Below are positions 12,448 to 39,836 of a stretch of 64,000 nt of DNA, one piece after another. Source of the stretch: a virus. Under the pieces are notes generated by a model, which made no database searches, was not told the DNA's origin, and worked only from the letters and a program-made list of their open reading frames with translations. Every line of letters begins with the position of its first letter. The first letter of the stretch is position 1. The position numbers and the translations under genes are program-made. The stretch spans positions 124,001 to 188,000 of IMG/VR virus record IMGVR_UViG_3300021963_000023; one strand, given 5' to 3'.

Positions 12448-14280
12448 ATGAGCAAAAAAATAGCATATACCAATAGAGATTTCGCCGGTTTAAGACAGGA
12501 CCTAGTAAATTTTACTAAAGAATATTATCCTGATATAATTCAGAATACTAATGACGCATCAATATATTCAGTATTGTTGGATTTGAATGCAGCAATTGCA
12601 GACAATCTACACTTTCATATTGATAGAGTTTGGCAAGAAACGATGCTTGATTTCGCACAACAAAAACAGTCGTTATTTCATATAGCTAAAACTTATGGAA
12701 TCAGAATTCCAGGATCTAGACCTTCAGTTGCATTATGCGATTTCAGCATAAATGTACCAGCAAAGGGTGATAAAGATGATGATAGATACGAAGGTATTTT
12801 AAGAGCCGGGGCTCAAGTTTCTGGAGGCGGTCAAATATTTGAAACAATTTCTGATATTGATTTTTCAAACCCATTCAACGAAAAGGGTGAAACAAATAGA
12901 TTAAAAATACCAAACTTTGATAATAATAATAAGTTAATTTCATATACCATTACCAAAAGAGAACCGGTTGTAAATGGAGTAACAAAAATATTTAGAAAAG
13001 CTATAAGTCAAAGAGACCAAAAGCCTTTTGTTAAAATTTATTTACCAGAAAAGAACGTTCTTGGTGTAACAACAATTATTCATAAAGAAGGAACCTCATT
13101 TGCTGGTAACCCCACAAGTAGTGAATTTATCACAGAACAAAATAAATGGTACGAAGTGCAATCTTTAGTTCAGGACAAAGTGTTTGTTCCTAGCAAAACT
13201 GCGGTGTCGGATAAAAAGAATTTTAAAGCTGGTGAATATATTAGAGTTAATAATAAATTTATAACAGAATATACACCAGAAGGGTTTTTCTTTTTAACCT
13301 TTGGCTCTGGTAATGTTGATCCACTAGATAATTTAGACAATTATATTACAAATAACCTAAAGGTTAATCTATCAACATATTTGAATAATATGTCATTAGG
13401 CGCAATACCAAAACAAGACACAACTCTATTCATCAAATATCGAATTGGAGGCGGTAAAGAGAGTAATTTAGGGGTTGGGGTGATAAACAACATAGAGAAC
13501 GTTGATTTTAGTATAAATGGCCCAAATCAGACTGTAAATGACCAAGTTCTACAATCTTTGGTTGTTACAAATATAACCCCAGCAGTTGGTGGATCTGATC
13601 AACCGGTATTAGAAGAGTTAAGAGGGATGATTGCATATAATTTTGCGGCTCAAAATAGAGCGGTAACATTAAATGACTATAAATCTATGATTGAAACCAT
13701 GCCATCTACATATGGGGCACCGGCCAAAGTTAATGTTATGGAAGAGGATAACAAGGTTAGAATCAAGTTGTTGTCATATGATGAGAATGGTAATTTAACC
13801 GACGTTGTGTCAAACACCTTAAAACAAAACATTGTATCATATCTTTCTGAATTTAGAATGATTAATGATTATATTGATATTGTTAGCGGTGAAGTAATTG
13901 ATCTAGGACTACAAATAGATATTCTCTTAGATAAGAACCAAAACCAAACAGAAGTACTTCGTGAAATCATCGGGGCTACCACATCTTATTTCTCAATTGA
14001 CAAAAGAAAAATGGGAGATCCATTATTTGTTGGTGAATTAATGAAAGAAGTAAATAACGTTCCTGGTGTTGTCAATGTTATTGATGTTAGAGTTTATAAT
14101 AAGATTGGTGGGGAATATTCATCATCTCAGGTTACTCAAAGCTACAAAGATGCTATTACTAAAGAAATTGCTCAAAGCAATATGACAGTATATATGAAAT
14201 CAAATCAAATATTTCAAATTAGATTCCCTCAAAAAGATATACAAATTAGGGTTATAACATTAGGAACGACTACATATTAA
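12448..14280 (+). CDS. 6: Baseplate wedge protein, gp6/J-like
   Basis: 610 aa. It forms the inner iris of the baseplate. The N-terminus (YTNRDFAGLRQDLVNFTKEYYPD, then a conserved segment naming NDASIYSVLLDLNAAIADNL) is typical of gp6 of T4-like phages. The J-type region with GGGKESNLGVGVI, AQNRAVTLNDYKSMIETMP and the C-terminal VNNVPGVVNVIDVRV matches the baseplate J family. It directly follows gp25. Confidence 0.9.
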   Translation: MSKKIAYTNRDFAGLRQDLVNFTKEYYPDIIQNTNDASIYSVLLDLNAAIADNLHFHIDRVWQETMLDFAQQKQSLFHIAKTYGIRIPGSRPSVALCDFSINVPAKGDKDDDRYEGILRAGAQVSGGGQIFETISDIDFSNPFNEKGETNRLKIPNFDNNNKLISYTITKREPVVNGVTKIFRKAISQRDQKPFVKIYLPEKNVLGVTTIIHKEGTSFAGNPTSSEFITEQNKWYEVQSLVQDKVFVPSKTAVSDKKNFKAGEYIRVNNKFITEYTPEGFFFLTFGSGNVDPLDNLDNYITNNLKVNLSTYLNNMSLGAIPKQDTTLFIKYRIGGGKESNLGVGVINNIENVDFSINGPNQTVNDQVLQSLVVTNITPAVGGSDQPVLEELRGMIAYNFAAQNRAVTLNDYKSMIETMPSTYGAPAKVNVMEEDNKVRIKLLSYDENGNLTDVVSNTLKQNIVSYLSEFRMINDYIDIVSGEVIDLGLQIDILLDKNQNQTEVLREIIGATTSYFSIDKRKMGDPLFVGELMKEVNNVPGVVNVIDVRVYNKIGGEYSSSQVTQSYKDAITKEIAQSNMTVYMKSNQIFQIRFPQKDIQIRVITLGTTTY

Positions 14281-22285: not shown

Positions 22286-23200
22286 ATGGCAGTAGGAAGT
22301 TACGGAACAATAAGACCGGCAGATGTGTCCCCAGAAGATGTAGAAATTATACTTCATTATGTGGCCAATAGAGCATCAACAACAGAACCAACATTAACAA
22401 AGTTGGATTCCGCTGATATTTTAACTCCAGTTTTTCATAATTCTGGAACCGGTGGAACATCTGGTACAGAAATTTTAGGTGGTTTATACAATCTTAGACT
22501 AAATAGTGACACATTTAGCGATTTAGGAATATATACATTACACCTTAGACCGAAGCAAATTAGAACTGAAATTACCGATTGTGGTGTTTTAGCATCACTA
22601 CCATCTGTCAGAGGATTGGTTATAGATTTGGGTAATGTTTTAACTGACGATAGAAATAATTTTGTTCCACAGGGTCTTGTTGGATATAGAGTTGAATATA
22701 TTGATAAATCAAACTCAAAAAAAGTTCCTAATTTTTATAGAATTGTCACATCTTCTTTTTATTGTGAACCAGTAACAACAAATTTAACAAATAGCACACA
22801 AAAAGCTATTAGATATAGATATTCAGATGCACCTACCAATTTGGTATTTTTAACCCTTACACCGTCTTCTGCACCTAGCAATCGACCAAATGTAACACCG
22901 TTCATTGGGGAGCCATCACAAAACATTATTTTAACTAACAGTTACTTTAACCCAACAACGGTTGAAGTTGAAATGGTTGAGCATGATGCATCAACACTTG
23001 CACACGCACTTTATGGTAATCAAAGTAAGGCGTTAAATTCTGGCGTTTATACAATTTATGACAAGAATAACAGTAACGCAATTTATAAACAGTTCAATCT
23101 TTATGAGGTTAAAGATGATCTTAACGAAACTCTATATGAAATTCGCGAAGAAAAAACTGATATAGACCAAACATTAAACTTTGACGATATTACCGAATAA
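22286..23200 (+). CDS. Tail structural protein, unknown family
   Basis: 304 aa. The N-terminus (MAVGSYGTIRPADVSPEDVEI) looks like an interaction arm, followed by beta-rich Thr/Ser/Asn segments and an acidic C-terminus (EIREEKTDIDQTLNFDDITE). No domain recognised. Its stop overlaps the start of the 1615-residue protein (TAATG), so the two products are probably made together and may form one complex. Confidence 0.6.
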   Translation: MAVGSYGTIRPADVSPEDVEIILHYVANRASTTEPTLTKLDSADILTPVFHNSGTGGTSGTEILGGLYNLRLNSDTFSDLGIYTLHLRPKQIRTEITDCGVLASLPSVRGLVIDLGNVLTDDRNNFVPQGLVGYRVEYIDKSNSKKVPNFYRIVTSSFYCEPVTTNLTNSTQKAIRYRYSDAPTNLVFLTLTPSSAPSNRPNVTPFIGEPSQNIILTNSYFNPTTVEVEMVEHDASTLAHALYGNQSKALNSGVYTIYDKNNSNAIYKQFNLYEVKDDLNETLYEIREEKTDIDQTLNFDDITE

Positions 23201-26200
23201 TGGCAACAAAAAAAGTACCAAGTCAGGCTGCTAGTGGTTTCGAAACTTTTAGCGACAGTATTGTTGGAAGACAAATTACTGACGGTACTAGTCAATTAAC
23301 TAATACCAATTTTGCTCTAGATAGAGTTATTCCTGAAAAAGATGCGAAAAGTTTTAAAACGGCACCATTTTCTGATTTTCTTACATTAGAAGATCTTAAA
23401 ATAGAAAATGACGTTCCAACGACTGTCAAACAATCTAGTGGAGAAAAAAGACCAATAAGATTCAACCCAAATAAAACGGAGGGTTCAAAATCTTTATTTG
23501 GATCTCTTAGAGAACGTATTAGGGTATCGGTTGGTAGAATTCTTAAAAACTATCCAGCTGCAATTTATGTTGATTCAAGTGGTTTATCATCAACGTCAGA
23601 TTATTCAGCTGAAAATATTGTTTTTAATGCAACAAGTAATAAAACAACTTTTAATGTTAAATCAAGTAAATTCTTTAATCCATTTGATATAGTTTTATCT
23701 AAACCAACAGCAAATGATTTATTAACAGTTGATAACACAATTAGAAATTTATTCTCATCATATAACAAATATTCAATTATTATAAATGGTGAGGCATATA
23801 ATGTTTCAAAATATAGTGAGCCAACAACAAATAATATAATATCATTAGAAGTTTATGGGAAACCATTTACTGGTTCAACATATTCTACTAGCTATATTAT
23901 TAGACCAAACGATGCTGTTGTTGAAGAGTTTTATCTTGGGTTAGATGACTTAGAACAAACATTATTAAACAGGGATACATATCCAATATTTCAAGCATCA
24001 TTTAAAGTACCTAGAACTAGTTTAGATGAAACAAGAACAGACTTAATTAACGTTCTTGTTGAATGGCCAGTTTCTAATGATGGATGGAATCCACAAACAA
24101 CAGGTTTAAAATTTGATGCATATATAACTAGATTAAATGATCTTGCAACAGAAATTGATGATTATAAATCAAATTTAGTAACAAGATTTTTAGTTGCACC
24201 ACAATTATTTGAATTTGATACAGAAGATCAAAAAGTTGATAAAATTTTTCAACTATATGGTCAAAGTTTTGACAAGGTTAAATCCTTTATTGACAATATT
24301 GCATACATGAGAAATGTGTCATATGATTCAATAAACAATATACCAGATGTTTTTCTTAAAAATTTAGCAAATACATTAGGTTTAAATACCATTAATTTAT
24401 TTGATCAAAAAACATTAGAAGAACAAATATACAAAGCGTCTAAATCGGTTTATAACGGTTCATCAATCGGTAAAAACTTAGTGGATGGTGAATTAGAATT
24501 TTATAGAAGATTATTAGTTAATCTTGCTTTTATATATAAATCAAAAGGAACAAGAAGTAGTATTGAATTTTTCTTAAAATTCATTGGTGCTCCAGATCCT
24601 ATGGTTAAGATTAATGAGTACGTATACAATGTAAAAACTGCTCTTTCAAAAACATCAGTTGAAGATGATATCTTTAATGTTATCAATAATGTTGCTGTAA
24701 CCAATAAGGTAACATTTAATTCAACAACATATAAGTATAATTTAAGCGCTGCCACTGGGTTAACAAGTTTTAGTAATACTACTGACTACCCAATAGATAG
24801 TGACACTTATTTACCAAAAACACCAACAACAAATCAGGATAATATATTTTTCCAAATGGGTTCTGGTTGGCATAATGTTAGTTTAGATCACAGATCTTCA
24901 GATATTATAGATACGGATAGTTCTAAAGGTACCTTTGTGGATGGTGAATTTATATTAACAGGTAGAACAAAAACAATATTAACCAAATCAAAACCATATT
25001 CTTATGGTGAAGAGTTTTTTGATATATACAGAACTTTTCCTGGTTTAGATTATGGATATACATTAGAAAGTAAGATTGATAATGTTAAAAGTCAGGTTGT
25101 TGATGATTTAACTGGAACTGGATTAGTTTTAAATAGAAAAAATATTAGTGTATTTGTTAGCCCAGCTAACGCAAGTAACTATGACATTTGGAGAAAATCA
25201 AGAGAATTAGAAGTAGTATTTGGAAATAATAGTTTAGAGGTACAGAGTGAAATAAGTTTTGCAGAATATCTTGATAATACTTTTTCAACACAAGTAATCA
25301 ATTCAAATTTAGTAAAATATAAGAAAAATTATATTCATCTAGAAGATGTATATCAAGATTATATTAATCAATTGGTATCTTCTGGATATACACCATATGA
25401 TTTTATTGATTCAACAGACTTTGTTAATCAAATGAGCCCTTATTGGTCAAATGTTTTAGAACAAATAATACCAGCAACCACATTATGGATGGGTGGTAAC
25501 TTGATTGAAAACAACATATTTGCAAGACCCAAATATGCATATAGAAAACCATGTAAACCAATTGAAATAATTGAAAATCTTTATCCAAATTTTGAAACAT
25601 TTATTGAAGAAGATTTGGAAACTATTGTGGGTGATCCAAATAATCTTAGAGGTTTAATATATTTTACTGGCGTTACGTTTACATTAAAAATGGACATTGA
25701 TGGTATTGAATATAGTGGCACAACATCTCAAGTTAAAATAACCGGAAATACCTTGTTTGATACTGGGTATACTGCAACCAATAGTTGTGGTGTTTTGGCG
25801 AGTTCATCAACAACAATACCATTAATTTGTGATTATAAAAATTGGATTAAATTAAATTTAACAACAACTAAGAATCTTTGGAAAACGGCCGTTATTAATT
25901 TAGTTAATAAAATCAATTCAACATATAACGAACCTATTGCGGGCCACATACCAACTGTATCACCATATAGTGGTGTTACTTATGGTTGTACTTCACTTCC
26001 TGGTGGTTGTAATGGTTATACACAATTAATATCATATGAGTTTTTTACAGATAATGATGGTATTGAAAAGGTTAAATTTATTGCACATAGTAATTCGGAC
26101 TGTTCAGAAAAAAGATATTTAGATTTTTATTTTGATGCAAAATATGATTATAGCGATCCAAGGTGTAGCTTAGATATTGAATTTACAACAGTTTGTCCTG

Positions 26201-28047
26201 ACGGTGTTAATTATCCGGTTTATACTGGATCTACAGCATGTAAATTAAAATCTGATGTTATAGTTAATATTACGGGTGCAACTATTCAATCTGGGGAAAC
26301 TTACGATTGGGGAATTTATATTCAAAGAAGAGGTATTCCTGGAATAAACTCTTATAATGGTTATCATCCAACATATAGTGATACAACTTTAGCCAAGGTT
26401 AGTGGAACAACATGTCAATTTAAAATATCTAATGTTTACGAAGATGAAGAAATTGATTTATTATTTACTGACGCCGCTAACTGTGATAAAAAAATTAAAA
26501 TAAAAGGTTTAGCATTACAATATGTTGAGTTTCCAACAGAGTCACCAGATCAACCAACAGTAATTAATACCGGATTTACAATACATCCAAAAATACAATA
26601 TAGAAATTCATATAACTATGGATTAAAACATGATACAAAAGTATTGGTTGTAAGTGGTGCAACAATTAACGGATCAACAACCTCTGCTAATATTCAGACT
26701 TATATTAGTGCTGGAACATTAGTTAAAAAAGATGTTAAAGATTTAGTTGCTGGAAACGTTATTGTTTCTGCAACTTATTCATCTTGTTCAACACTATCAA
26801 GTACTTCATTTGAAATTGCTAAATTGAATAATAATTATTCATTCTCATATTCTTATACAACATATACAATATCTGATATTGACTTTTTAGGATCAGTTAA
26901 AACCAGTGTTATTAGTGGAAGAACCGTTAGTGGTACAACAATAGTATTTGAAGTTTTACCAACAACTAAATTTAGAATTTACACAAATAAAAACGTTAAT
27001 GAAACCACAGGATTAATAACAAAAAGAAGTGGCTACGCATTTGACAATAGATCACCAGAATTTTTACAAATTAAACCAGAGACGCCAATTGAACCATGTT
27101 GTGATTATCCTTCAGATTATTATGATACTGGTGATTATATTATAACAGAGAAGGGCCAACTTATTGAAGTTATTTCGGTTGATTTAAATTACTGTGATAT
27201 CAATATGTATTATAACATAAACATCACTACTGCAACATCAACTAGCCCAACTAATTTAATTACATTTAATGGTAATTCAAATTATTTAGCATTAGTTGAA
27301 CATCAATATATTGGATTTAATAGATTGGATGCATCATTACAACAATACTATGTTGATAATGTTTGTTGTACAGAAACACCATCAATTGCTTCATTAGAAA
27401 GAAATTATTCAAACTTATGTAGTGGAAACAACGCATATAATTGTGTTGGTTCATATCCAATTATAACACCAGCACCAACAAGAACACCAAACCCAACACC
27501 AACACCTAGTCCATCGGGAACGCCTGGGCCAACACCAACAAGAACCCCAACACCAACACCAAGCGCTAGTTCAACTCCAACACCAACACCAAGTTCTTCT
27601 CCAACCCCAACCCCATCGGTTACGGCAGCGGGTGACTTCTGTGCTGATATTGTGTTTACTGGACCGACAGCAACTCCAACAGCAACTGCAAATTTATTAT
27701 TTAGAATTAATTGGTCTATTAAGGGTGGCTCGTCTTCTGGTTTAGAAATTCTATCAGTATCCTCCGCAGTATTATTAAGTGAATCTTCATCAGGGGTTGA
27801 TAGAACTGGGTTTATCGATGTTACCCTATCAGATTTACCGTATACTGTAACTGGTAGGTGGAATAGTGGTTCGGGTAATATTGTAAGATATAATATTTGT
27901 GATATTACAAACGGAGGAGAAATATTCACCAGTAGTGCAATTAACAATATGAATATGGAAGAATCACACACGGTTTCTCCAACACCATATGAAATAAAAG
28001 TTAGTGTTGTAGGACAAAATAACACACCTATGTCATGCCCAATATAA
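23200..28047 (+). CDS. Giant tail protein with a C-terminal Pro/Thr linker and terminal domain
   Basis: 1615 aa. The N-terminal 700 residues are Tyr/Asn-rich with helices (LRERIRVSVGRILKNYPAA, YKSKGTRSSIEFFLKFIGAP) that resemble the conserved part of large T4-like tail proteins. The middle part holds many Cys residues and short beta repeats. From about residue 1420 (nt 27460-27625) a linker rich in TPTPTPS steps joins a last domain of about 140 aa (GDFCADIVFTG ... NNTPMSCPI). The linker type links it to the following fibre genes. Probably a baseplate-to-fibre connector. Confidence 0.65.
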   Translation: MATKKVPSQAASGFETFSDSIVGRQITDGTSQLTNTNFALDRVIPEKDAKSFKTAPFSDFLTLEDLKIENDVPTTVKQSSGEKRPIRFNPNKTEGSKSLFGSLRERIRVSVGRILKNYPAAIYVDSSGLSSTSDYSAENIVFNATSNKTTFNVKSSKFFNPFDIVLSKPTANDLLTVDNTIRNLFSSYNKYSIIINGEAYNVSKYSEPTTNNIISLEVYGKPFTGSTYSTSYIIRPNDAVVEEFYLGLDDLEQTLLNRDTYPIFQASFKVPRTSLDETRTDLINVLVEWPVSNDGWNPQTTGLKFDAYITRLNDLATEIDDYKSNLVTRFLVAPQLFEFDTEDQKVDKIFQLYGQSFDKVKSFIDNIAYMRNVSYDSINNIPDVFLKNLANTLGLNTINLFDQKTLEEQIYKASKSVYNGSSIGKNLVDGELEFYRRLLVNLAFIYKSKGTRSSIEFFLKFIGAPDPMVKINEYVYNVKTALSKTSVEDDIFNVINNVAVTNKVTFNSTTYKYNLSAATGLTSFSNTTDYPIDSDTYLPKTPTTNQDNIFFQMGSGWHNVSLDHRSSDIIDTDSSKGTFVDGEFILTGRTKTILTKSKPYSYGEEFFDIYRTFPGLDYGYTLESKIDNVKSQVVDDLTGTGLVLNRKNISVFVSPANASNYDIWRKSRELEVVFGNNSLEVQSEISFAEYLDNTFSTQVINSNLVKYKKNYIHLEDVYQDYINQLVSSGYTPYDFIDSTDFVNQMSPYWSNVLEQIIPATTLWMGGNLIENNIFARPKYAYRKPCKPIEIIENLYPNFETFIEEDLETIVGDPNNLRGLIYFTGVTFTLKMDIDGIEYSGTTSQVKITGNTLFDTGYTATNSCGVLASSSTTIPLICDYKNWIKLNLTTTKNLWKTAVINLVNKINSTYNEPIAGHIPTVSPYSGVTYGCTSLPGGCNGYTQLISYEFFTDNDGIEKVKFIAHSNSDCSEKRYLDFYFDAKYDYSDPRCSLDIEFTTVCPDGVNYPVYTGSTACKLKSDVIVNITGATIQSGETYDWGIYIQRRGIPGINSYNGYHPTYSDTTLAKVSGTTCQFKISNVYEDEEIDLLFTDAANCDKKIKIKGLALQYVEFPTESPDQPTVINTGFTIHPKIQYRNSYNYGLKHDTKVLVVSGATINGSTTSANIQTYISAGTLVKKDVKDLVAGNVIVSATYSSCSTLSSTSFEIAKLNNNYSFSYSYTTYTISDIDFLGSVKTSVISGRTVSGTTIVFEVLPTTKFRIYTNKNVNETTGLITKRSGYAFDNRSPEFLQIKPETPIEPCCDYPSDYYDTGDYIITEKGQLIEVISVDLNYCDINMYYNINITTATSTSPTNLITFNGNSNYLALVEHQYIGFNRLDASLQQYYVDNVCCTETPSIASLERNYSNLCSGNNAYNCVGSYPIITPAPTRTPNPTPTPSPSGTPGPTPTRTPTPTPSASSTPTPTPSSSPTPTPSVTAAGDFCADIVFTGPTATPTATANLLFRINWSIKGGSSSGLEILSVSSAVLLSESSSGVDRTGFIDVTLSDLPYTVTGRWNSGSGNIVRYNICDITNGGEIFTSSAINNMNMEESHTVSPTPYEIKVSVVGQNNTPMSCPI
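27460..27625 (+). repeat. Pro/Thr-linker minisatellite in the giant tail gene
   Basis: Degenerate repeats of (ACACCA)n and variants encode TP steps with Ser, Arg and Gly. The same low-complexity DNA recurs in the next fibre genes. Confidence 0.85.
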
Positions 28048-28062: not shown

Positions 28063-29772
28063 ATGTTAACAACCTTTACATATAGCGGGCATTATAACGG
28101 AAAACCTTCATGGCAAGGTAGTCTAAGCGGCGTTACATGTAATGTAAGATGGAATGGTACTGATTATTGGACAATAACATCGTGGCCATATGGTGGTGAA
28201 CCCAAGAATTATACAACAACAAATTCTCCGAGCAGTGGTTGGGTTATTAGTGGAACTACTAGTGTTAGTTCAATTACCCTTAATTTAGGTAGTTGTCCAC
28301 TACCACCTACTTCTACACCAACAAGAACACCAACACCAACACCATCGTCAAGTCCAACACCAACTCCAAGTGTGACACCTAATTGTAATTTCGGTGTGGG
28401 AGTAGTTGTATTAACAGCAACACCAACACCAACACCATCCGCAACTCCAAACTGTAATTTCGGTGTGGGAGTAGTTGTATTAACAGCAACACCAACGCCA
28501 ACAATAAGTCCTTCAACAACACCTAGTCCAACACCATCTGCTACACCTAATTGTAATTTTGGTGTGGGGGTAGTGGTATTAACTGCAACACCAACGCCAA
28601 CCCCGTCATCAAGCAGTACACCAACACCAACACCATCTGCCACACCTAATTGTAATTTTAATGTGGGGGTTTTTGTTGCAACTCCAACTCCAACAGCTAG
28701 TAACTCACCAAGTCCAACCCCTAGTACAACACCTAGTCCAACACCATCTGCTACACCTAATTGTGATTTTAATGTTGGTGTGATTGTATTAACAGCAACC
28801 CCAACTCCGTCAGCAAGTTCAACACCAATTCCTACTCCAACACCATCATCAAGCAGTACTCCGACTCCAACACCATCCGCAACTCCAAATTGTGATTTTG
28901 GTGTGGGTGTGATTGTATTAACCGCAACACCAACCCCAAGTGCTACACCATCACCAACTCCTAGTACTACACCAAGTCCTAGTGCAACACCATCACCAAC
29001 TCCGAGCGCAACTCCTAATTGCGATTTTGGAGTAGATATACTTGTTTTAACGGCAACGCCAACACCAACACAATCAGCAACACCAAATCCAACACCGAGT
29101 CCTAGCCCATCATCAACACCGGAACCAACACCATCCGCAACAGCAAATTGTGATTTTAATGTTGATGTATTTGTGGCAACACCTACACCAACAGCAACTA
29201 TTGCGCCAACACCAACACCGTCGTCGACACCATTCCCAACAAGTACACCAACAACAACACCTAGTCCAACACCAACAACAACTGTTGATTGTGCTTTGGA
29301 TACAACAGTTAATCCAGAGTTAACTGAGGTGGTAAACTGTTTAGCTAGTATGGAATTTATTGTTCAATACAGCCCAACTTTGGGGCCATGCCCTGGTGGT
29401 CATCAATGTAATGCCGCAACATTTTACTTAAGAGGTAATAACGTTACAATTGGTACAGTTTATTTAAGTAATAATGGATTTACCGATCAGCTTAATTACC
29501 CACCTGGAATTACTAGTGGCTTAGCTAGATATAATTCATTAACATTAACAACACAACAAGCTCAAAATATTGCTGCATCGTCAACTGGTGGTAACATAAG
29601 TTTCTCACTTGTTTGTGCAACACCAATAAATGTAAACTATGGTTATGGTTTTGGAGGTTGCCACACAAACGTAACTTGGATTACATTAAAACTTAATAAT
29701 GAAACAATCTATAGTGGTTGTCCAAATAATAATTTCTTAACTATAAACCCATGTACTGGGGTAATATCATAA
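28063..29772 (+). CDS. Modular tail fibre/adhesin with eight Cys-Pro/Thr repeats
   Basis: 569 aa. The N-terminal domain (1-85) is beta-rich with Trp ([20 protein letters not shown]). Residues about 86-410 contain eight copies of the unit NC(N/D)F(G/N)V(G/D)VxVLTATPT separated by TP/SP-rich linkers. The unit starts lie at nt 28381, 28450, 28549, 28648, 28759, 28888, 29017 and 29146, the last four spaced 129 nt. The C-terminal domain (about 410-569, [19 protein letters not shown] to the end) has many Cys and Asn residues and is likely the binding head. There is one Cys per repeat, which could form interchain disulfides. Host receptor binding is inferred. Confidence 0.7.
28309..29289 (+). repeat. 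Tandem Cys/Pro-Thr repeat array
   Basis: Eight coding units with a short beta-strand core and a variable TP/SP linker. An exact 44-nt repeat occurs at 28384-28427 and 28453-28496. Older copies differ mainly at synonymous positions, so the protein sequence of the core is under selection. Confidence 0.9.
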
Positions 29773-29773: not shown

Positions 29774-30052
29774 ATGGAAGTAATAATAACAAATAAAATT
29801 TTAACATATACAAATAACAATTATACCATTGATATAAATGATTTATTTACATTAAATAATACTATGGTTATGGTTAAAGAACTATTTACTTTAAACGATG
29901 AAATGTATATTAGCTATATTGATGATCAAGGTAATGGTTTGTTAATCGAGAAAGCAAATGATTTTATCGAAAATAATAAAAACTATTTTAATAGTGTAAC
30001 AAAATCGTTAATCACAACAAATAATGAATCAAATTGTGGTTGTGGTTGCTAA
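29774..30052 (+). CDS. Small protein with Cys-rich C-terminus
   Basis: 92 aa, 1 nt after the preceding fibre gene and 12 nt before the next. It has beta/helix segments (ILTYTNNNYTIDINDLFTLN, KELFTLNDEMYISYIDDQG), with the word LFTLN/LFTLND repeated at about 20-residue spacing, and ends in SNCGCGC. Possibly a fibre chaperone or accessory subunit, judged only by its position between two fibre genes. The C-terminal CGCGC could coordinate metal or form disulfides. Confidence 0.55.
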   Translation: MEVIITNKILTYTNNNYTIDINDLFTLNNTMVMVKELFTLNDEMYISYIDDQGNGLLIEKANDFIENNKNYFNSVTKSLITTNNESNCGCGC

Positions 30053-30064
30053 AAATAAATAATA

Positions 30065-33000
30065 ATGGCAAAGAAGTTTTATGTAAAGATTGTTTCTGGT
30101 ACTGATGCTGGTCCTTATAATATTTATTATGATCAGGTTAATTCAGCAAATCTTGCAACCAATTTCGATACGTCATTTATTGCCAGTGGTGTTACACGTA
30201 GTGAATTAATATCAAGCTTAGGTGTACACATTAGCGTTCCAGATGGTGCAGTTAAAATAATTGTTTATAATACGAATAGTAGAGTAATTGCGGAGTGCCA
30301 ATCAAATATTGATGAAACTTTTCTACCAACTCCATTACCAACACCAACGCCTTCGCCTAGTCCTTCACCAAGCCCAAGTCCTAGCCCTTCGCCAACTCCG
30401 AGTGCAACTCCGAATTGTGATTTTGGGGTAGATATTATTGTATTAACTGCAACACCTACACCAACTCCGTCCACAACACCAAATGCTACACCAGGCCCAA
30501 CGGCAGGACCAACTCCAGCACCAACATCAACACCAAGTTCAACACCTTCACCAACAACTAATTGTGCATTTTTAATTAATACAACAGTTAATCATGCGCC
30601 AACAGATATATCGTTAAGTCACAATAGAATAAATGAAAATTCAGCAATTGGAACACTAGTTGGTTATTTATCAACAACATCAGGTGATAGTGGTGATATA
30701 CACGCATATTCTGTGGTAAATTCAGCCCCTTTTAGTATTATTAGTGATGGATTATATAGTTCAATATCGTTCAATTATGAGGTAGCAACTTCATATACAG
30801 TGGCAATCCGCACCACTGATAGTGTTGGTCAAACATATGATAAACAATTTACGGTTTATGTTGATAATGTTAATGAGGCGCCATATGGTATAAACATTTC
30901 TGGATCAATACCTGAGAATAGTTCAATAGGAACAACCGCAGGTACGTTATCTACTTTAGATCCGGATGCTGGCGATACATTTACATATAGTTTTATTAAT
31001 ACCGGTTCATATCCGGATAATAATAGTTTTAATTTATCTTCTGGTGGAGTATTAACATCAACAGCTGTTTTTGATCTTGAAACAAAAAGTTCATATCTAT
31101 TAAATGTAAGAACAACAGATTCTGGAGGTTTAACATATGATGGTCTTGTGTCTGTATCAGTAACTAATGTCAATGAACCACCAACAGGAATTGATTTATC
31201 ATCATCTTCAATATCTGAAAATGTTCCAACGGGAACTACCATTGGTACCCTTTCAACATATGATCCCGATGCTGGTGATACATTTACATATACCCTTATT
31301 GATCCTCTTCAATATCCAGACAATGTAAATTTTACAATTACAGGGGCGGTTTTAAAATCTAAATCTGTATTTAATTATGAGACAAAAGATACATACCTTA
31401 TAGGAGTTAGGTCAACAGATGCTTTAGGTTCATATGCTGATGAATTAATATATATTTACATAACAGATGTTGTTATAACGGCATCTAGGTCTTCAACAAA
31501 TGTCACTTGTAATGGTGGATCAGATGGTACAATAACAATATCTAGTATTGTTGGTGGGACTGGTAGTTACACATATTCAAAAAATGGTAGTACCTATCAA
31601 TCAAGTAATGTATTTACAGGTTTAACAGCTCAAACATATGCATTATATGTTAAAGATTCATATGGTGAAGTTGGTCAATTAACATCTCTAGCAATAACAC
31701 AACCAACAATAGTAAGTTTTACAGCAACTGGAACAGCACCAACGTGTAATGGTGGTTCAGATGGTTCAATAACATTATCTAGTGTTAGTGGAGGTGTTTC
31801 GCCATACACGTATTCTAAAGATGGTTCAACATATCAATCTGGTTTATCATTTACAGGTTTAACAAATGGTACGTATACAACATATGTTAAAGATGCTAGT
31901 GGATGTGTTAGAACAAATACCACTGGTTTAAATAGAACACAAGTAAGCGCAACAATATCACAATCAAATGTGGCATGTTACAATGGAACAACAGGTTCAA
32001 TTACAGTAAGTAGCGGTACTGGTGGATCAGGGTCCGGTTATCAATCAAAAATTGGTTCTGGAGGAACATATGCGAATTTACCAGTAACATATTCTAGTTT
32101 ATCTTCTGGTGCATATACAATATTTGTTAAAGATAGTTCTGATTGTGTTAATAGTTTTAGTATAACAATAACTCAACCAGCGACTCCAGTTAGTGCTAAT
32201 CCAGATACGAATATCGCACCAACTTGTTACAACGATAGTGATGGACAAGTTGCGTTTTATGGTAGTGGAGGAACATCACCATATACATATTCAATAGATG
32301 GTACAAATTATCAATCTAGTTATATATTCAGCAATTTATCAAATGGTAATTATACTGGTTATGTGAAAGATGCTAATGGTTGTATTGCAACAATTGTAAG
32401 AAATATTAATAGAAGTGCACCATCAGCATCATATAGTATTAGTAATGTTTCATGTAATGGTGGATCAAATGGTTCAATAGTTGTAAGTAGCGGTACTGGT
32501 GGATCAGGGGCTGGTTATCAAGCCAAAAAAGGTTCTGGAGGAACATATGCAAGTTTACCAGTAACCTATTCTAGTTTATCTGCGGGAACGTATACAATAT
32601 ATATTAAAGATAATTCAGGTTGTATTCAAACATACAATCAAACAATAACACAACCAAGTGCTGTATCAATATCGGTATCTGGTACAAATCCAACATGTTG
32701 GAACGGTAGTAATGGTTCAGTATCTGCTTCAGGTTCTGGCGGAACGGGTAGTTACACTTATTCAAAAGATGGAACAAACTATCAATCTAGCGGAACTTTT
32801 AGTAGTTTGGGTACTGGATATTATACAATCTATGTTAAAGACAGCAATGGTTGTATAACATATGATTATGTGTTATTATCTAAATCCGAACCAAATGCAA
32901 CAATATCTGTAACCAATCCAGTTTGTAACGCAGGAACGGGAACGATCGTTGTTTCTGGTGGTTCTGGAGGTTCAGGTTCGGGATACCAAGCAAAAAATGG

Positions 33001-34186
33001 TTCTGGTGGTACGTATGCGAACTTACCAGTAACCTATTCATCATTAGGTGGTGGCGCGTATACAATTTTCATTAAAGATGGCGCTGGTTGTGAACAATCA
33101 TATTCAGCAACTGTAACCATACCATCGGCAGTATCTGGTTCTTTTATTGGTGCGTCTTTTCCAACTTGTTCTTATTCATCAAATGGATCATTAACAGTTC
33201 AAGGTGGTGGCGGTACACCAAACGCATCCGGATACAAATATTCTATTAGTAGTAATGGTGGTTCATATTCCGCATATACCATATTTAAATCGTCACATAC
33301 GTTTAGTAGTTTAGTAAGTGGTAGTCACTCAATAATAGTTTTAGATAATGAGAGTTGTTATACAATTATTACATATAACCTAACAGTATCTGCTCCAGAA
33401 CTTGGAACAGTAACAACTACAAACGTTACTTGTAATGGTGGTTCAAATGGTGAAATTTCTGTGGTAAGTTTAATAGGTGGGTCATCACCTAGACAAGTTT
33501 CAATAGATGGAGAGACATTTCATTATCCACCTAAAGCATTTAGTAGTTTATATGCTGGGGAATATACATTATATGTAAGAGACGGGAATGGTTGTGAGAG
33601 TCAATATTACAGAACAATAAGTCAACCAAGCGCGCAAACAGTATCATTAAGTGTTGTAACAGCCCCAACCTGTGCAAGTGGTGTTGATGGAGTTATGGCT
33701 TTATCTTCTTCTGGTGGTGTGTTCCCTAAAACATATCGATTATATGAGGATACATCATTCCCTTATAATACTTGTGGAGGGGACTTGATTGGTACATATG
33801 GAACGGGTACATATGGTACAACATTTAATGTATCTGATTTAACTCCTGGAGGGTATTGTTTAGAAGTAACGGATGCGAATGGTTGTGTAACTAATAGTGG
33901 GGTGGTTGTATTAACACAATCTGCGGTTTATTACGCTTATCAAGTAATTAGATGTTCTAATGGTCAATATTCATCAATGACATCACCACATTTATTACCT
34001 AGTCAATTCTTAGGTGGCCTCAAGGCTGTTAAAATTAATGATGTATGTTGGCAGATCGATTATTATGCGACGACAACCTGTACACAAGAGACCCTTCATT
34101 TAATTGATGGTGAATATTCAGGATATTACGAAACATGTACTAGTTGTACAAGTGGTGGGCCTGGAGGAGGACAACAATACTTATAA
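30065..34186 (+). CDS. Giant modular adhesin: attachment domain, Pro/Thr linker, cadherin-like and SprB-like repeats
   Basis: 1373 aa. Order: N-terminal attachment-like domain (1-90), Pro/Thr/Ser linker (about 90-165) with a ninth copy of the NCDFGVD-VLTATPT unit, three cadherin-like repeats (about 178-468; each with 'N..P..i.....i.EN...GT..G.LS..D.D.GD...Y'), ten SprB-type repeats (about 470-1285; TCNGGSDGTI, GGTGSYTYSKNG, Y.LYVKD..GC, ITQP), and an 85-residue Cys-rich end. SprB repeats are known from flavobacterial gliding adhesins. No signal peptide is seen, consistent with a virion protein. A long side or tail fibre is the likely role. Confidence 0.75.
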   Translation: MAKKFYVKIVSGTDAGPYNIYYDQVNSANLATNFDTSFIASGVTRSELISSLGVHISVPDGAVKIIVYNTNSRVIAECQSNIDETFLPTPLPTPTPSPSPSPSPSPSPSPTPSATPNCDFGVDIIVLTATPTPTPSTTPNATPGPTAGPTPAPTSTPSSTPSPTTNCAFLINTTVNHAPTDISLSHNRINENSAIGTLVGYLSTTSGDSGDIHAYSVVNSAPFSIISDGLYSSISFNYEVATSYTVAIRTTDSVGQTYDKQFTVYVDNVNEAPYGINISGSIPENSSIGTTAGTLSTLDPDAGDTFTYSFINTGSYPDNNSFNLSSGGVLTSTAVFDLETKSSYLLNVRTTDSGGLTYDGLVSVSVTNVNEPPTGIDLSSSSISENVPTGTTIGTLSTYDPDAGDTFTYTLIDPLQYPDNVNFTITGAVLKSKSVFNYETKDTYLIGVRSTDALGSYADELIYIYITDVVITASRSSTNVTCNGGSDGTITISSIVGGTGSYTYSKNGSTYQSSNVFTGLTAQTYALYVKDSYGEVGQLTSLAITQPTIVSFTATGTAPTCNGGSDGSITLSSVSGGVSPYTYSKDGSTYQSGLSFTGLTNGTYTTYVKDASGCVRTNTTGLNRTQVSATISQSNVACYNGTTGSITVSSGTGGSGSGYQSKIGSGGTYANLPVTYSSLSSGAYTIFVKDSSDCVNSFSITITQPATPVSANPDTNIAPTCYNDSDGQVAFYGSGGTSPYTYSIDGTNYQSSYIFSNLSNGNYTGYVKDANGCIATIVRNINRSAPSASYSISNVSCNGGSNGSIVVSSGTGGSGAGYQAKKGSGGTYASLPVTYSSLSAGTYTIYIKDNSGCIQTYNQTITQPSAVSISVSGTNPTCWNGSNGSVSASGSGGTGSYTYSKDGTNYQSSGTFSSLGTGYYTIYVKDSNGCITYDYVLLSKSEPNATISVTNPVCNAGTGTIVVSGGSGGSGSGYQAKNGSGGTYANLPVTYSSLGGGAYTIFIKDGAGCEQSYSATVTIPSAVSGSFIGASFPTCSYSSNGSLTVQGGGGTPNASGYKYSISSNGGSYSAYTIFKSSHTFSSLVSGSHSIIVLDNESCYTIITYNLTVSAPELGTVTTTNVTCNGGSNGEISVVSLIGGSSPRQVSIDGETFHYPPKAFSSLYAGEYTLYVRDGNGCESQYYRTISQPSAQTVSLSVVTAPTCASGVDGVMALSSSGGVFPKTYRLYEDTSFPYNTCGGDLIGTYGTGTYGTTFNVSDLTPGGYCLEVTDANGCVTNSGVVVLTQSAVYYAYQVIRCSNGQYSSMTSPHLLPSQFLGGLKAVKINDVCWQIDYYATTTCTQETLHLIDGEYSGYYETCTSCTSGGPGGGQQYL
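30590..31470 (+). repeat. Three cadherin-like repeats (coding)
   Basis: Each unit of about 95 residues begins with NHAPTDI, NEAPYGI or NEPPTGI and contains ENS..GT..G.LST, and in units 2 and 3 DPDAGDTFTY. These match the calcium-binding cadherin-like adhesion repeat. Confidence 0.75.
31474..33925 (+). repeat. Ten SprB-type repeats, partly in alternating pairs (coding)
   Basis: Conserved Cys codons of the 'TCNGG'-like start lie near 31507, 31744, 31977, 32224, 32454, 32695, 32925, 33169, 33432 and 33671 (period about 230-260 nt). Repeats 3, 5 and 7 share GSGGTYANLPVTYSSL, while 2, 4 and 6 share the YTYSKDGTNYQSS type. An exact 27-nt match at 32006-32032 and 32483-32509 shows a 477-nt two-repeat unit. 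Confidence 0.85.
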
Positions 34187-34205
34187 AAAAAACAAAATAA
34201 ACAGA

Positions 34206-34229: not shown

Positions 34230-34805
34230 ATGCAAATTACATTCACATTAAGTCCAAGTTATACAGGATCAACATACGTTGCTGGTCCTTTTAATATTTC
34301 AGGTACAACCAGCGCAGGAACAACCTATTGGTTAGTAACTGGTGTTACAAAATCACAATTAACAACTGGTCACACAATAACCACAGCATATGAAACTCTA
34401 ACAGGTGGAACTATTGCTAGTACTGGAACATGCACAACAACTCAACCATGGTATGTTACAACACCATCACCGACACCGACACCAACAGCAACAGAAAGTG
34501 GTGTAGCATTAACAGCGGTAGGGCTTCAAGGTCCATATCAAACTTGTGCAAACGCATGTTCAGCATATAATTCAAACCCGTCATTTACACAATTCTATAT
34601 GACAACAAATGACTTTAATGGATTGGCGTCACTTAATGGCACATTGTACACACAAAATATTGCTAGTCCAAGTAACTATGTAAATGCTGGATGGTATTAT
34701 CATAATTCTAGTTATATTATAGAGGTTGGGCAAAGTGGTGTTGTTCAGGCTACTATGTATCAATGTCAACCAAATGGACAATGCGGCGGAGGTGTTATAA
34801 ATTAA
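34230..34805 (+). CDS. Short modular tail fibre protein
   Basis: 191 aa: an N-terminal domain (1-75), a short TPSPTPTPTATE linker (about 78-90) and a C-terminal Cys-rich domain (about 95-191) ending in QCGGGVIN. The N-terminus (AGPFNISG ... TGVTKSQLTTG) is similar to that of the 30065 adhesin (AGPYNIYY ... SGVTRSELISS), so both may plug into the same virion socket. The C-terminal part is the likely binding module. Followed by a strong terminator. Confidence 0.65.
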   Translation: MQITFTLSPSYTGSTYVAGPFNISGTTSAGTTYWLVTGVTKSQLTTGHTITTAYETLTGGTIASTGTCTTTQPWYVTTPSPTPTPTATESGVALTAVGLQGPYQTCANACSAYNSNPSFTQFYMTTNDFNGLASLNGTLYTQNIASPSNYVNAGWYYHNSSYIIEVGQSGVVQATMYQCQPNGQCGGGVIN

Positions 34806-34889: not shown

Positions 34890-36503
34890 ATGGGATTAAA
34901 CATAAGATTATACGGGATAAATTCACCGAAGGCTTTTACCTTATCATATAAAACTGGTAAAACTGCTGGTAATGAGTCTGTTATAGCAACAGGGTACACA
35001 TCTTATGGTTCATTATATCCCACTAGTATATCAAGAAATTATACAAATGATCCAATTATTTTTACAAATGCATCTTTTGATACACAATATTGGTTTAAGT
35101 TAACATATACTGGAGATACTGGTGATGTAAATTATTACGTTCAAAATATATTTACAAATGAAGCTGAAGTTTATGATAATTGTATAAATTGTTGTTACTT
35201 CCCTAATGTTGGAACAGCATCTTTTGTACCACCACCAACTGCAACACCAGCCGCCACACCAGGACCAACACCAGGACCAACACCAGGACCAACACCAGGA
35301 CCAACACCAGGTGCTACACCAGCAGCTACACCAGCCGCAACTCCTGCAGCTACCCCTGCAGCAACACCAGCTCCAACGGCAACGGCAACGACACCAGGAG
35401 CAACACCAGGACCAACAGCGGGACCAACTCCTGGGCCAACAGCGGGAGCAACACCACTGCCAACACCAACAGTTACTGCAACAGCATTACCTGGAACTTG
35501 TTATACTATGGTTTTCCCAACATCAGTTACAACTTTTGACGGAAAAACATTATATATAAATTATCAAAAAACAGATGATACATATGCTTCTTGGCCATAT
35601 TCACAATATGAAGATTCTGGATCAAACAGCCCTAGCATAACAATTAAAATATGTTCTAAAACATATCCAACTCTTAAATATGGTCCATCAGGTGATCAAC
35701 TTGTACCGGATGCGAACTTTACTATTACTTCTGGTGCAGGTTGTACAACTAGCACCAATTGCGGAGGTAGCGATCCAGTAACACCACCACCAACAGCAAC
35801 AGCCCCAGTAATTACGAATGCTAGTGGTGATTGTTATAAATGGTCAGTTAGTGATGGAAATAGTAATTCAGGAATGACAGTAACGTATACACCGTTAAAT
35901 ACTAACACACCAATAACAACTAATGTTAACATGGTTGAAAGTGATACACAATATTATTATATATGTTCTAAAACTATAGCGGATTTCAGATCGGGTGGTA
36001 ACCAAACAGTATTCCCATCAATACAAGATGGAACATGTAGTTTAGTTGATGGGGTATTTAGTGGTTGTCAAACACCTGCACCAGGACCAACACCAGGACC
36101 AACACCAGGATCAACACCAGCACCAACGCCAACACAAACGGCAGCACCAGGAACACCATGTATTTCAATAACCGAATATTCGTCACAACAGAATACTGAA
36201 TGTCTACTTAATACTGTACCATATTATTATACCACAATTACAGCATTATTAACCAATGGTAATGGTAATGCAATGAATGCTGTTGGTGATGTGTATGCTT
36301 ATGTTAGTGTTACGGAAAATTTCCTTTATCAGCAGGAAAGAACAGTTAATTATGATATTAAAATATTGAATGGAACAAGTTCAGCACAACTTACCGTTGT
36401 AACAGAAATACCAGTAGATAATGGACAAGGTAATTGTGAAAATGAAAGAAGAACAATAAATTCTTATAGTACACAGGCTGGATACAGTATATGTACACCT
36501 TAA
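34890..36503 (+). CDS. Modular tail fibre protein with PGPT/PAAT linkers
   Basis: 537 aa: N-terminal beta domain (1-110, IRLYGINSPKAFTLSYKTGK) ending in a CINCC cluster, a linker of TPGP and TPAA steps (about 112-200), domain 2 (about 200-295, GTCYTMVFPTSV), a short linker, domain 3 (about 305-390, CYKWSVSDGNSNSG), a second TPGP linker (about 395-420) and a C-terminal domain. Domains 2 and 3 look like tandem copies (CY-x(n)-TYA/YTP ... YICSKT/KICSKTYP ... F.I..G). The linker vocabulary (Gly/Ala) differs from the Ser-rich linkers upstream. Receptor binding is inferred. Confidence 0.65.
   Translation: MGLNIRLYGINSPKAFTLSYKTGKTAGNESVIATGYTSYGSLYPTSISRNYTNDPIIFTNASFDTQYWFKLTYTGDTGDVNYYVQNIFTNEAEVYDNCINCCYFPNVGTASFVPPPTATPAATPGPTPGPTPGPTPGPTPGATPAATPAATPAATPAATPAPTATATTPGATPGPTAGPTPGPTAGATPLPTPTVTATALPGTCYTMVFPTSVTTFDGKTLYINYQKTDDTYASWPYSQYEDSGSNSPSITIKICSKTYPTLKYGPSGDQLVPDANFTITSGAGCTTSTNCGGSDPVTPPPTATAPVITNASGDCYKWSVSDGNSNSGMTVTYTPLNTNTPITTNVNMVESDTQYYYICSKTIADFRSGGNQTVFPSIQDGTCSLVDGVFSGCQTPAPGPTPGPTPGSTPAPTPTQTAAPGTPCISITEYSSQQNTECLLNTVPYYYTTITALLTNGNGNAMNAVGDVYAYVSVTENFLYQQERTVNYDIKILNGTSSAQLTVVTEIPVDNGQGNCENERRTINSYSTQAGYSICTP
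35227..35495 (+). repeat. TPGP/TPAA linker minisatellite
   Basis: Tandem 12-nt units, ACACCAGGACCA and ACACCAGCWGCW types, encode TPGP and TPAA. Two more arrays lie at 36076-36147 and, in the next gene, 36781-36975. Confidence 0.9.
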
Positions 36504-36534: not shown

Positions 36535-37698
36535 ATGGCATATACAGCATTAGTAGGTTTAGGATCACAAATTGGTGTGGGAATTACATCGGTAAAATTA
36601 TATCAATGTGGTACTAATTGTACTAGCTGTACGTCAATAACAAACTATACTAATGTTGCTGTTTCATCTTTTAATTCACCGGGCTTATTGGTTACAGGAA
36701 TAACTGATGGTTCAACATGTATTAAAGCAGAACCAGTTGGTGTTTGTAGCGGCTCAACACAGTGTATTATAGTTTCTGGTATACCAGGACCAACACCTAG
36801 TCCAACAGTACCTCCAGCAACACCAGGAACAACACCAGCAGCTACACCAGCAGCTACACCAGCACCTACACCAGCTCCAACGGCAACAGTAACAACACCT
36901 GGTGCAACACCAGCTCCAACGGCAACGGCAACAGTACCAGCCGCAACACCAACACCAACAGCAACGGCGTTACCTGGTTGTGGTTCTACAGTAACCGGCA
37001 CTTACAATCTAAGTGGATTTACAACACAAACAGTTAATTTAAATTTCTCTGGAGCTGTGAATGGTGGACTGATTACTGTACATTATACAGCAAATTCAAG
37101 ACCTGATAGATTCTCAATTAAAAAGAACGGATTAAGTATTGTTGCAAATAGTGGATGGGTTGGTTCAGACTCTAATTATTCAGGGCCATGGGATCTAAAT
37201 GGAATAGAGGATGCAGATGGTGACGGTTACATGACGTTTACTTATGACAATTCAGCAACTTACCAATTATTAGTTGATGTGGGTAATGCAAACCCATCTA
37301 ATATTTTAGATGATTCTTGGTCTGTAACATTTAACTGTGCTCCAGGACCAACACCAACACCAACAACACCACCACTTTATGGTTATTTCAGAAGTACAAA
37401 TAGAACACTTACCAGTGAATTCTGTGTAAACCCTGGATTCATAACAAGTGCACAGTGGTATAGTACGGGAAGTACCTTAAGTACCGCAATTGGATATAAT
37501 ATAGTTTATTCAGACACAAATTACACGGTATTTAATGGAAGTAGTTTATGGTATGCCGTAACTCAAGATGGTTCGTTTAACACATACACCGGTGGACAAT
37601 TTAACGCAGTTCAAATTGATTCAAATGGGTATATTATTTCAACAGCACTTATAAATTGTAGCAGCGGCGGAGGCGGCGGTGGTGGTGGTTTAACATAA
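36535..37698 (+). CDS. Modular tail fibre protein with Gly tail
   Basis: 387 aa: N-terminal Cys-rich beta domain (1-80, KLYQCGTNCTSC), TPAA/TPTA linker (about 83-147), a middle domain (about 150-265, with a FTYDNSATYQLLVDVG beta-sandwich-like stretch resembling calcium-dependent binding domains), a short PTPTPTTPP linker and a C-terminal domain that ends in a run of seven Gly then LT. The architecture repeats that of the previous gene with different heads. The Gly-rich tip recalls the tips of other phage adhesins, but that comparison is only inference. Confidence 0.62.
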   Translation: MAYTALVGLGSQIGVGITSVKLYQCGTNCTSCTSITNYTNVAVSSFNSPGLLVTGITDGSTCIKAEPVGVCSGSTQCIIVSGIPGPTPSPTVPPATPGTTPAATPAATPAPTPAPTATVTTPGATPAPTATATVPAATPTPTATALPGCGSTVTGTYNLSGFTTQTVNLNFSGAVNGGLITVHYTANSRPDRFSIKKNGLSIVANSGWVGSDSNYSGPWDLNGIEDADGDGYMTFTYDNSATYQLLVDVGNANPSNILDDSWSVTFNCAPGPTPTPTTPPLYGYFRSTNRTLTSEFCVNPGFITSAQWYSTGSTLSTAIGYNIVYSDTNYTVFNGSSLWYAVTQDGSFNTYTGGQFNAVQIDSNGYIISTALINCSSGGGGGGGGLT

Positions 37699-37715: not shown

Positions 37716-39836
37716 ATGAGCTTTTTAAATAGTAATAATTCAGAGTTCTTGTCAGCAAGAATAACAAAAAAGGGTAGACAATCTATCGCTGAAGGTAATT
37801 TTAATATAAAATATTTTCAGATTGGAGATTCCGAATTTGACTATAATGTTAAATTTGGTGGATTTACCGGTGCAATAACTGGTGGGACAAGAGCTCCACA
37901 TCAAAGAATATTGGCACCAGTTGATGGTGATCAACATGTTAAATATCCTTACTTAATAGATGCAAATGAATTATTAAACTTTGGTAATGCTGCACAACAA
38001 TCATATGTTGACACATTAAAAAATCCAATGGGGCCAGCGGGATTTGTTTCACAATATATTCCATATAATGCTAGTCCATGTACTGGATCAACGGTTGAAT
38101 GTTTAAGTAAAAAAATAGATTTATCTGTAATTGGTGGCGGAAGTATTTTATCGGTTACCGGTGCAACAGATTTTTCTGAATGTCAATATATTACATTAGT
38201 TTTTAAAGCAGATTTTGTTGGATCGGAATATACTATAAGTGGAAACACTCAAAGTTTAGTTTATAAAATAAGTGGCACCAGTACAAATGAAATTTATTTG
38301 GATAGAAATATGCCAAATTTTTCAGGTCAAACAGGAACCGTTAGAGTTGTATGTAACAAATGTAAATTAGATCATCCACAAGATACATTAGTCGCTGATG
38401 TTTGTTCACCACTTCAACCGGATAATTTAGCACAACACGATCCATGGCAATTAGAATTAGTTTGGACAGAAGAACCAGCTGGTTTGGATACAACATCCGA
38501 TGATGAATATATTTCCGGATATACTGGTTCACAACTTGCATCATTAAAAGAATATCTTGGATATACCACAAATACTGGACAAACATTTACAAATACAACT
38601 GGTGGAACAATAACTAATCCAACTTCGTATACAAATACATTTGGAGAAAAAATTGATATAACACCATCTAAACAAAGAGCTATCGCTGTTATTCATTATT
38701 CTGAATTGGGGGACATTGTTAATGACCCAGAAAGATTTTTTAAATATGATGACTATATAGCTCATGGAACACTAGATAACGAAACATTATATGGAGAACA
38801 AATATCTGATGCGGAATATTTCCAGGTTTATATCCCATTTTTATTATATCATAGAAATACCGGTTCTACAATTGGAGCAGTATTTACTATGGGTACAACT
38901 GATTATTATGTATCATCGGCTTTAAATACAAAACCCAATACTAACAATCTTAAATTTAGATATCTAGTAGATCAACAAGGTGTTAATGTTGGTAAAGTTT
39001 TTGTTGATAAAAAAATTATTGTTTTTGATGATCAAGAATTAGTTGCTGCTTTAGATTATAAATCAAATAGAAAATGGACATTACCTGCACCAAGGTTTAG
39101 TACAGTACCGGTTGACTTACCAACGTTCTATGATTTAGATCAAGTAATTTCAACAGGTCAAACTGCTTGGGTAACATACATGTTTCAAAATACATCTACA
39201 ACAGGTATCACTGGTATGCATTGCAATTACTATGGTGAAATTACCGGATCAACAAATTCTAACATTGGATTTAAATTTAATACTGGTGAATTCAAATTTT
39301 TAAGTAGCACTTCTCAATTTGATGGATTTACTGCTAATAAGTTTTATGGTTTAGTACAAGTTACAACAACAGGTCAACGGCCATCTCCTAACGGTTGGAA
39401 AAGAATCGATTTAACATCTCAAATTTCTGGACATACTGTTGGTAATTTAATAAATAAAGTAAACATGTGTGGTTATCAGTTTGTAGTTACTGGCGATATG
39501 GTTAGTGCTGGATCAATATATGATTTAGAATCGTTCTTAGGTGGTTTACCAGATAAAACGCAAACAACCTTACCACAATTTGGTGACACTCAACCATTTC
39601 CAGGTAGTATAAAGTTAACTAGAGCAACAGACGTGCAAGTTTTAAATTTCATGGTAAATCTACCATCATCTCAATTTATTACAACGCAAAACCCTACCTA
39701 CGTAACAGGACAACAAAAAAGAATTACTGAAGTTGCTTTATTAAATGATAATAAAGAACCATTAGTAATGGCTAAATGTCCAAAACCAGTTCAAAGAATT
39801 GGAAATCAAGTATTTTCTGTTAGGTTGGATTTCTAA
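37716..39836 (+). CDS. Tail-collar/fibre-like structural protein
   Basis: 706 aa. The N-terminus (SARITKKGRQSIAEGNFNIKYFQIGDSEFDY) matches the 'l.. aGr..la.g....I..fa.GD..' pattern of phage tail-collar fibre proteins (DUF3751-like). The C-terminus (KRITEVALLNDNKEPLVMAK ... NQVFSVRLDF) resembles the matching end of such proteins. The middle is Thr/Gly/Asn-rich. It is last in the late block, 40 nt before the resolvase gene. A baseplate or fibre-network role is likely; the exact T4 counterpart is unclear. Confidence 0.6.
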   Translation: MSFLNSNNSEFLSARITKKGRQSIAEGNFNIKYFQIGDSEFDYNVKFGGFTGAITGGTRAPHQRILAPVDGDQHVKYPYLIDANELLNFGNAAQQSYVDTLKNPMGPAGFVSQYIPYNASPCTGSTVECLSKKIDLSVIGGGSILSVTGATDFSECQYITLVFKADFVGSEYTISGNTQSLVYKISGTSTNEIYLDRNMPNFSGQTGTVRVVCNKCKLDHPQDTLVADVCSPLQPDNLAQHDPWQLELVWTEEPAGLDTTSDDEYISGYTGSQLASLKEYLGYTTNTGQTFTNTTGGTITNPTSYTNTFGEKIDITPSKQRAIAVIHYSELGDIVNDPERFFKYDDYIAHGTLDNETLYGEQISDAEYFQVYIPFLLYHRNTGSTIGAVFTMGTTDYYVSSALNTKPNTNNLKFRYLVDQQGVNVGKVFVDKKIIVFDDQELVAALDYKSNRKWTLPAPRFSTVPVDLPTFYDLDQVISTGQTAWVTYMFQNTSTTGITGMHCNYYGEITGSTNSNIGFKFNTGEFKFLSSTSQFDGFTANKFYGLVQVTTTGQRPSPNGWKRIDLTSQISGHTVGNLINKVNMCGYQFVVTGDMVSAGSIYDLESFLGGLPDKTQTTLPQFGDTQPFPGSIKLTRATDVQVLNFMVNLPSSQFITTQNPTYVTGQQKRITEVALLNDNKEPLVMAKCPKPVQRIGNQVFSVRLDF

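Follow-up and report, generated by a model that had tools for sequence, protein, structure and literature searches.

Gliding proteins of flavobacteria, including SprB and RemA, have been reported or suggested to take part in phage adsorption (PMC13288928, PMC7345892), and gut Bacteroidota phages encode modular immunoglobulin (Ig)-like adhesins that bind mucus and epithelium (PMC13370021). No paper describing a phage virion protein with SprB repeats could be found in the open-access literature searched, subscription journals and preprints being outside this search. Here, we analyzed a 64,000-nucleotide stretch (the window; positions 124,001 to 188,000) of the IMG/VR virus record IMGVR_UViG_3300021963_000023, which comprises 251,149 bases in total. 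The window encodes a 1373-residue protein with SprB-type repeats (30065..34186). We consider this protein, with a probability of roughly 75%, to be a virion adhesin of a contractile-tailed jumbo phage which combines a length-adjustable Ig-type stalk with a swappable receptor-binding tip. All window features given below are located on the plus strand.

The open reading frame, Pfam matches and repeat segmentation agree on the modular plan put forward in the initial annotation, namely an N-terminal attachment domain, a Pro/Thr linker, three cadherin-like repeats and ten SprB-type repeats, whereas the C-terminal domain was missing from that description. The N-terminal anchor domain (residues 1-84; 30065..30316) is conserved in 55 open reading frames of viral contigs and has no Pfam match. 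It is followed by a Pro/Thr/Ser-rich linker (residues 85-172; 30317..30580), which carries a PNCDFGVD-type insert and resembles the linkers found in neighboring fiber genes. Three cadherin-like repeats with matches to solved cadherins (residues 173-473; 30581..31483) then precede the predicted stalk, an array of ten SprB-type units of 74-95 amino acids (residues 474-1286; 31484..33922). The separate and most variable part of the adhesin is its Cys-rich C-terminal domain of 87 residues (residues 1287-1373; 33923..34183), the predicted receptor-binding tip. Profile searches of the full-length protein against Pfam, as proposed with the initial annotation, yielded PF13573 (SprB) at E=1.3e-31 (108.3 bits with a gathering cut-off of 28, seven stretches) and PF00028 (Cadherin) at E=1.3e-17 (64.4 bits with a cut-off of 28.8, two stretches). 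Neither a composition-matched shuffle nor the reversed SprB region gave any Pfam match at E<=1, so that composition is not the cause of the SprB match. Structure prediction, which had likewise been proposed, modeled repeat 10 (R10) with high confidence as an Ig-like beta-sandwich. A Foldseek search with a model of R10 plus tip returned generic Ig folds only, and these describe R10, not the tip. Repeats R3, R5 and R7 are 65-66% identical and interleaved with R2, R4 and R6 (48-55%), indicating that a two-repeat unit was duplicated. The plan of ten SprB and three cadherin repeats is retained in four close relatives at 72-82% identity. The adhesin further matches the virion structural protein group PHROG 26672 (E=2.6e-47). 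Matches in Caulobacter, Brevundimonas and Rhizobium phages chiefly cover the cadherin stretch and are uninformative with respect to the SprB repeats.

The adhesin gene is located within a tail/baseplate module, downstream of sheath and baseplate genes. The contractile sheath gene (PF04984) lies at position 110767 of the virus record and the terminase gene at position 72619. Right behind the sheath gene, upstream of the window, a short gene was found whose sequence is tail-tube-like by inspection. The baseplate genes in the window have homologous and syntenic counterparts in the cultured Flavobacterium phage Immutovirus immuto. They encode a homologue of the baseplate assembly protein gp113 (11994..12446; phmmer E=5.9e-12 to locus L076) and a baseplate wedge or Baseplate_J-like homologue of gp112 (12448..14280; tblastn E=1e-38 at 99% query coverage, with PF04865 just below cut-off). 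Where Immutovirus immuto carries tail fiber and tail spike genes, the window contains a cassette of about six fiber genes (23200-37698) which follow a common plan where a Pro/Thr-rich linker connects an N-terminal domain and a C-terminal end, each of them distinct. Given its position in this module, the protein very likely acts as a phage adhesin, as the initial annotation had suggested.

Searching for the anchor domain identified 53 loci with 55 open reading frames on viral contigs, some of the records being near-identical. These 55 proteins contain between 0 and 14 SprB repeats and between 0 and 6 cadherin repeats. As the repeat alignment was too diverse for a degenerate scan, the search relied on a DNA pattern and on the entire array; by pattern scan and PF13573, 16 of the 18 viral records analyzed contain the SprB repeat, and the majority of these 16 carry the adhesin-type fiber. 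The window-type tip (MTSP...KINxxCYQIDY) is found behind four SprB and no cadherin repeats (L143, L144 and L149), six SprB and three cadherin repeats (L145), ten SprB and three cadherin repeats (the window, L114-L117 and L151) and ten SprB and six cadherin repeats (L122 and L126). Stalk length thus varies freely behind one tip. At the level of sequence comparison, these arrays show stalk-length variation by repeat gain and loss.

In two sister loci (L064 and L065), the anchor is identical to a fraction of 0.99 and the stalk mostly to 0.6-0.89 whereas the last block has an identity of 0.14. With the tip of its adjoining gene, whose anchor differs, the L065 tip shares 55% identity (E=3e-30). Strong tip exchange between adjoining fiber genes was observed for the pairs L064/L065 and L063/L071. 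Grouping the anchors and tips of 13 records at E<1e-3, with tips clustered by single linkage on 85 residues, gave 10 anchor and 20 tip families. Six of the tip families are each present on at least two anchors, and seven anchors each occur with more than one tip. The strong exchange suggests a common pool of about 20 tip families in these phages. Comparing the window with its closest relatives, synonymous divergence (dS) was 0.8-2.05 in the tip and about 0.3-0.8 elsewhere in the gene, the low-complexity linker excepted. Such raised dS points to replacement of the tip by a diverged allele and not merely to faster protein change. Comparison of the genes thus shows recombinational tip swapping both between allelic copies and between neighboring fiber genes with different anchors. 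The SprB array itself is mosaic, as seen from SprB repeats 1-2 of L001 and L004, which are at a dS of 0.04 though the anchors differ at a dS of 0.69, and from a replaced block at repeats 3-4 of L003.

Outside of phages, SprB repeats were detected in 43 of the 198 Bacteroidota genomes sampled. The 14 control genomes gave no such match. For all ten window repeats, the best match beyond their own close relatives came from another phage clade. Repeat 8 is an exception in that the margin of phage over bacterial matches is negligible (0.42 vs 0.41) and its nearest tree neighbor is bacterial. In a tree of 175 repeats, the separation of phage and bacterial sequences takes 10 changes compared with at least 44 when labels are shuffled. 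The nearest neighbor in clade B (L067) is the same-numbered repeat for 7 of the 10 window repeats while positional matches to clade C (L070, L071) are seen in just 3 of 10, indicating that the array predates the split of clades A and B and was reshuffled relative to clade C. The SprB repeats are ultimately of a Bacteroidota surface-protein type, yet have long been a phage component.

The adhesin would be one of about six fibers of a contractile-tailed jumbo phage whose host probably belongs to the Bacteroidota. Its conserved N-terminal domain would fix the protein to the tail or baseplate, with the Pro/Thr linker supplying flexibility. The cadherin and SprB repeats would together form a long Ig-type stalk acting as a spacer, and the 87-residue C-terminal domain, judging from its exchange pattern, would be the receptor-binding tip. 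Tip swaps would then alter host recognition with the stalk being kept. Ig-type stalks may be monomeric, unlike the homotrimeric shaft of T4-like long tail fibers. Going by the aligned genes, the tip rather than the SprB repeats most likely determines specificity, because stalk length is free behind one tip and exchange affects the tip.

Several observations weigh against this assignment. We infer both the incorporation of the adhesin into the virion and its orientation. The tip shows no recognized binding fold or family in Pfam or in the Foldseek search of the R10 plus tip model, and the AlphaFold model of the anchor reached a moderate predicted local distance difference test score (pLDDT) of 71 with no significant Foldseek match. 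Further, the repeat tree rests on 71 columns, and the Gly-rich tip family 0 may be over-merged given the single-linkage clustering used.

Alternative explanations differ in what the repeats are for and where they came from. The SprB repeats themselves could bind the host, either by mimicry of host adhesins or by homotypic sticking to them. This idea, raised in the initial annotation, gains some appeal from the presence of SprB repeats in surface proteins of the phylum that likely includes the host and from the role proposed for SprB and RemA in flavobacterial phage adsorption (PMC13288928, PMC7345892), but we regard it as improbable given that one tip is used with 4 to 10 SprB repeats, that many fibers with the same anchor have none and that tips are swapped in otherwise similar sister phages while repeats are conserved. 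The window repeats are also nearer to other phage repeats than to the sampled bacterial ones. Mimicry or binding of host SprB is unneeded as an explanation. In a further scenario, the SprB stalk would touch the moving SprB/RemA track of the host through homotypic or lectin-like contacts, and gliding would carry the phage over the cell surface until the tip meets its receptor; we judge this to be very improbable. That the phage captured a piece of an adhesin gene from its host had been proposed as one origin of the protein; as a recent event, such capture was rejected on the basis of the repeat tree and would be highly improbable. Bacterial repeats of the SprB family do reach about 50-60% identity per repeat, and the huge phage LR756502 carries a complete host-type adhesin of the type IX secretion system (T9SS) with SprB repeats. 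However, position-matched orthologous repeats in other phage clades, together with the common anchor domain and the lack of a signal peptide and of T9SS signals, argue for acquisition before these phages diverged.

The lack of export signals bears equally on the possibility that the adhesin is made from the phage genome but displayed on the infected cell, where it would act in superinfection exclusion or aggregation instead of being part of the virion. Its adhesive repeats are of a surface type, and LR756502 provides an example of a phage-borne SprB protein with export signals. The N-terminus of the adhesin (MAKKFYVKIVSGTDAGPYNIYYD), however, has no hydrophobic stretch and hence no signal peptide by inspection, and no NCBIfam match to a T9SS C-terminal sorting domain (TIGR04131, TIGR04183) was obtained at E<=0.01. 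The same search returned sorting domain matches in the bacterial SprB-repeat proteins tested (L017, L018) and in the LR756502 protein. As the gene is also found inside the tail module in relatives and its anchor family occurs on several phage genes, we consider cell-surface display hardly plausible. Finally, the protein could represent a whisker- or head-type decorative fiber for environmental polymers such as mucus, polysaccharide or particles and not for a host receptor. Gut Bacteroidota phages have Ig-like repeat adhesins that bind mucus and epithelium (PMC13370021), which would fit such a role, as would the classification of PHROG 26672 under head and packaging, but the gene is part of the baseplate/fiber cassette outside the head module and exchangeable tips are better suited to host-receptor recognition, making a decorative function unlikely. 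A tail-borne adhesin with stalk and exchangeable tip is the explanation we prefer.

The host of the phage is likely a member of the Bacteroidota, in line with the initial annotation, as judged from the repeat type, the low number of Shine-Dalgarno leaders and the relationship to Immutovirus. Shine-Dalgarno-like leaders were present at just 3 of 36 gene starts. Few such leaders are usual in Bacteroidota. A Bacteroidota-type promoter motif was not enriched (5 found vs about 4 expected). With respect to the baseplate gene, a Microcystis phage is about as close as the Flavobacterium phage Immutovirus, and the host assignment thus remains a likelihood and falls short of proof.

The other members of the fiber cassette vary in anchor, linker and tip. 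The first gene (23200..28047) encodes a 1615-amino-acid protein which corresponds in its N-terminal part to a large putative baseplate/tail protein and ends in a Pro/Thr linker and a tip from the shared pool (tip family 9, present also on another anchor). Based on sequence comparison, the gene upstream of the adhesin (28063..29772) carries a different anchor, long Pro/Thr linkers and a tip. The motif PNC[DN]F[GN]V[DG] is repeated many times between its Pro/Thr stretches, possibly representing a small folded bead or disulfide unit of the linkers. GVGV-rich antisense reading frames opposite the Pro/Thr linkers were discarded as reading-frame artefacts. By the same comparison, three genes follow the adhesin, namely a short fiber gene with anchor family 3, a Pro/Thr linker and a tip (34230..34805), a gene with anchor family 1, Pro/Thr linkers and a tip (34890..36503) and a gene with anchor family 4, a Pro/Thr linker and a tip with a Gly-rich end (36535..37698). 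Behind them, a conserved 706-amino-acid protein (37716..39836), with no named phage among its matches, marks by synteny the end of the fiber cassette in relatives. Rearrangements of the cassette were seen in several other records. In L001 (5407-9083), the homologue of gene 28063-29772 is interrupted by an inserted gene for a protease-like protein of 404 amino acids, and its former tip is now joined to another anchor. A 214-amino-acid gene is inserted in L003 (14387-15028) between two fiber genes which adjoin each other in the window. In L144 and L149, the four-repeat SprB fiber is located upstream, not downstream, of conserved genes encoding 201 and 306 amino acids, indicating that the fiber cassette was relocated within the tail module.

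SprB-repeat proteins of other types were encountered on two viral sequences. LR756502.1, a 642-kb uncultured huge phage, encodes a 1670-amino-acid SprB-repeat protein (L074:6504-11513) that matches TIGR04131 at E=2.4e-13. This host-type surface adhesin on a phage is arguably more surprising than the window fiber. A 1337-amino-acid protein with a signal-peptide-like start and six SprB repeats (L072:7435-11445), in which a T9SS domain was not found, is encoded on a 115-kb viral contig (G005) also bearing RecA-, PhoH- and dUTPase-like genes.

The adhesin belongs to a fiber family that is widespread among large uncultured phages and whose three modules, anchor, stalk and tip, evolve separately. 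The likely receptor-binding part can thereby be recognized from sequence alone in phages lacking a cultured host, and modular tips provide a means to test whether changes in host range go along with tip exchange. A repeat named for a gliding adhesin appears as a general spacer unit in cells and phages, and an SprB match alone is therefore no proof of a gliding adhesin or of host mimicry.

Compared with known systems, the window adhesin shares its repeat family (PF13573), tandem arrays and predicted Ig-like sandwich (R10) with the SprB proteins of Bacteroidota, which include the Flavobacterium johnsoniae gliding adhesin and are T9SS substrates, but carries a phage-specific anchor and tip in place of a signal peptide and T9SS sorting domain. 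The LR756502 protein, with 13 SprB-type repeats on a phage genome, differs from it in that its start resembles a signal peptide and that it contains a T9SS type B sorting domain; it is apparently an exported surface protein, not a tail fiber. In Polaribacter phage P12002S, gp28 (phrog_26672) contains an SprB-like repeat, and its gene follows the tape measure gene in the tail region; unlike the window adhesin, gp28 is a 679-amino-acid siphophage protein of other architecture with a single repeat. The tail fiber and tail spike proteins gp101-gp104 of Immutovirus immuto occupy the equivalent position behind homologous baseplate genes, while homology to the window fibers was not found. A modular repeat shaft and location in a structural module are shared with the Ig-like adhesins of gut Bacteroidota phages (PMC13370021). 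In contrast to Ig- and cadherin-like phage fibers, the window shaft is composed of SprB and cadherin repeats behind Pro/Thr linkers, and tips are exchanged between adjacent fiber genes with unrelated anchors.

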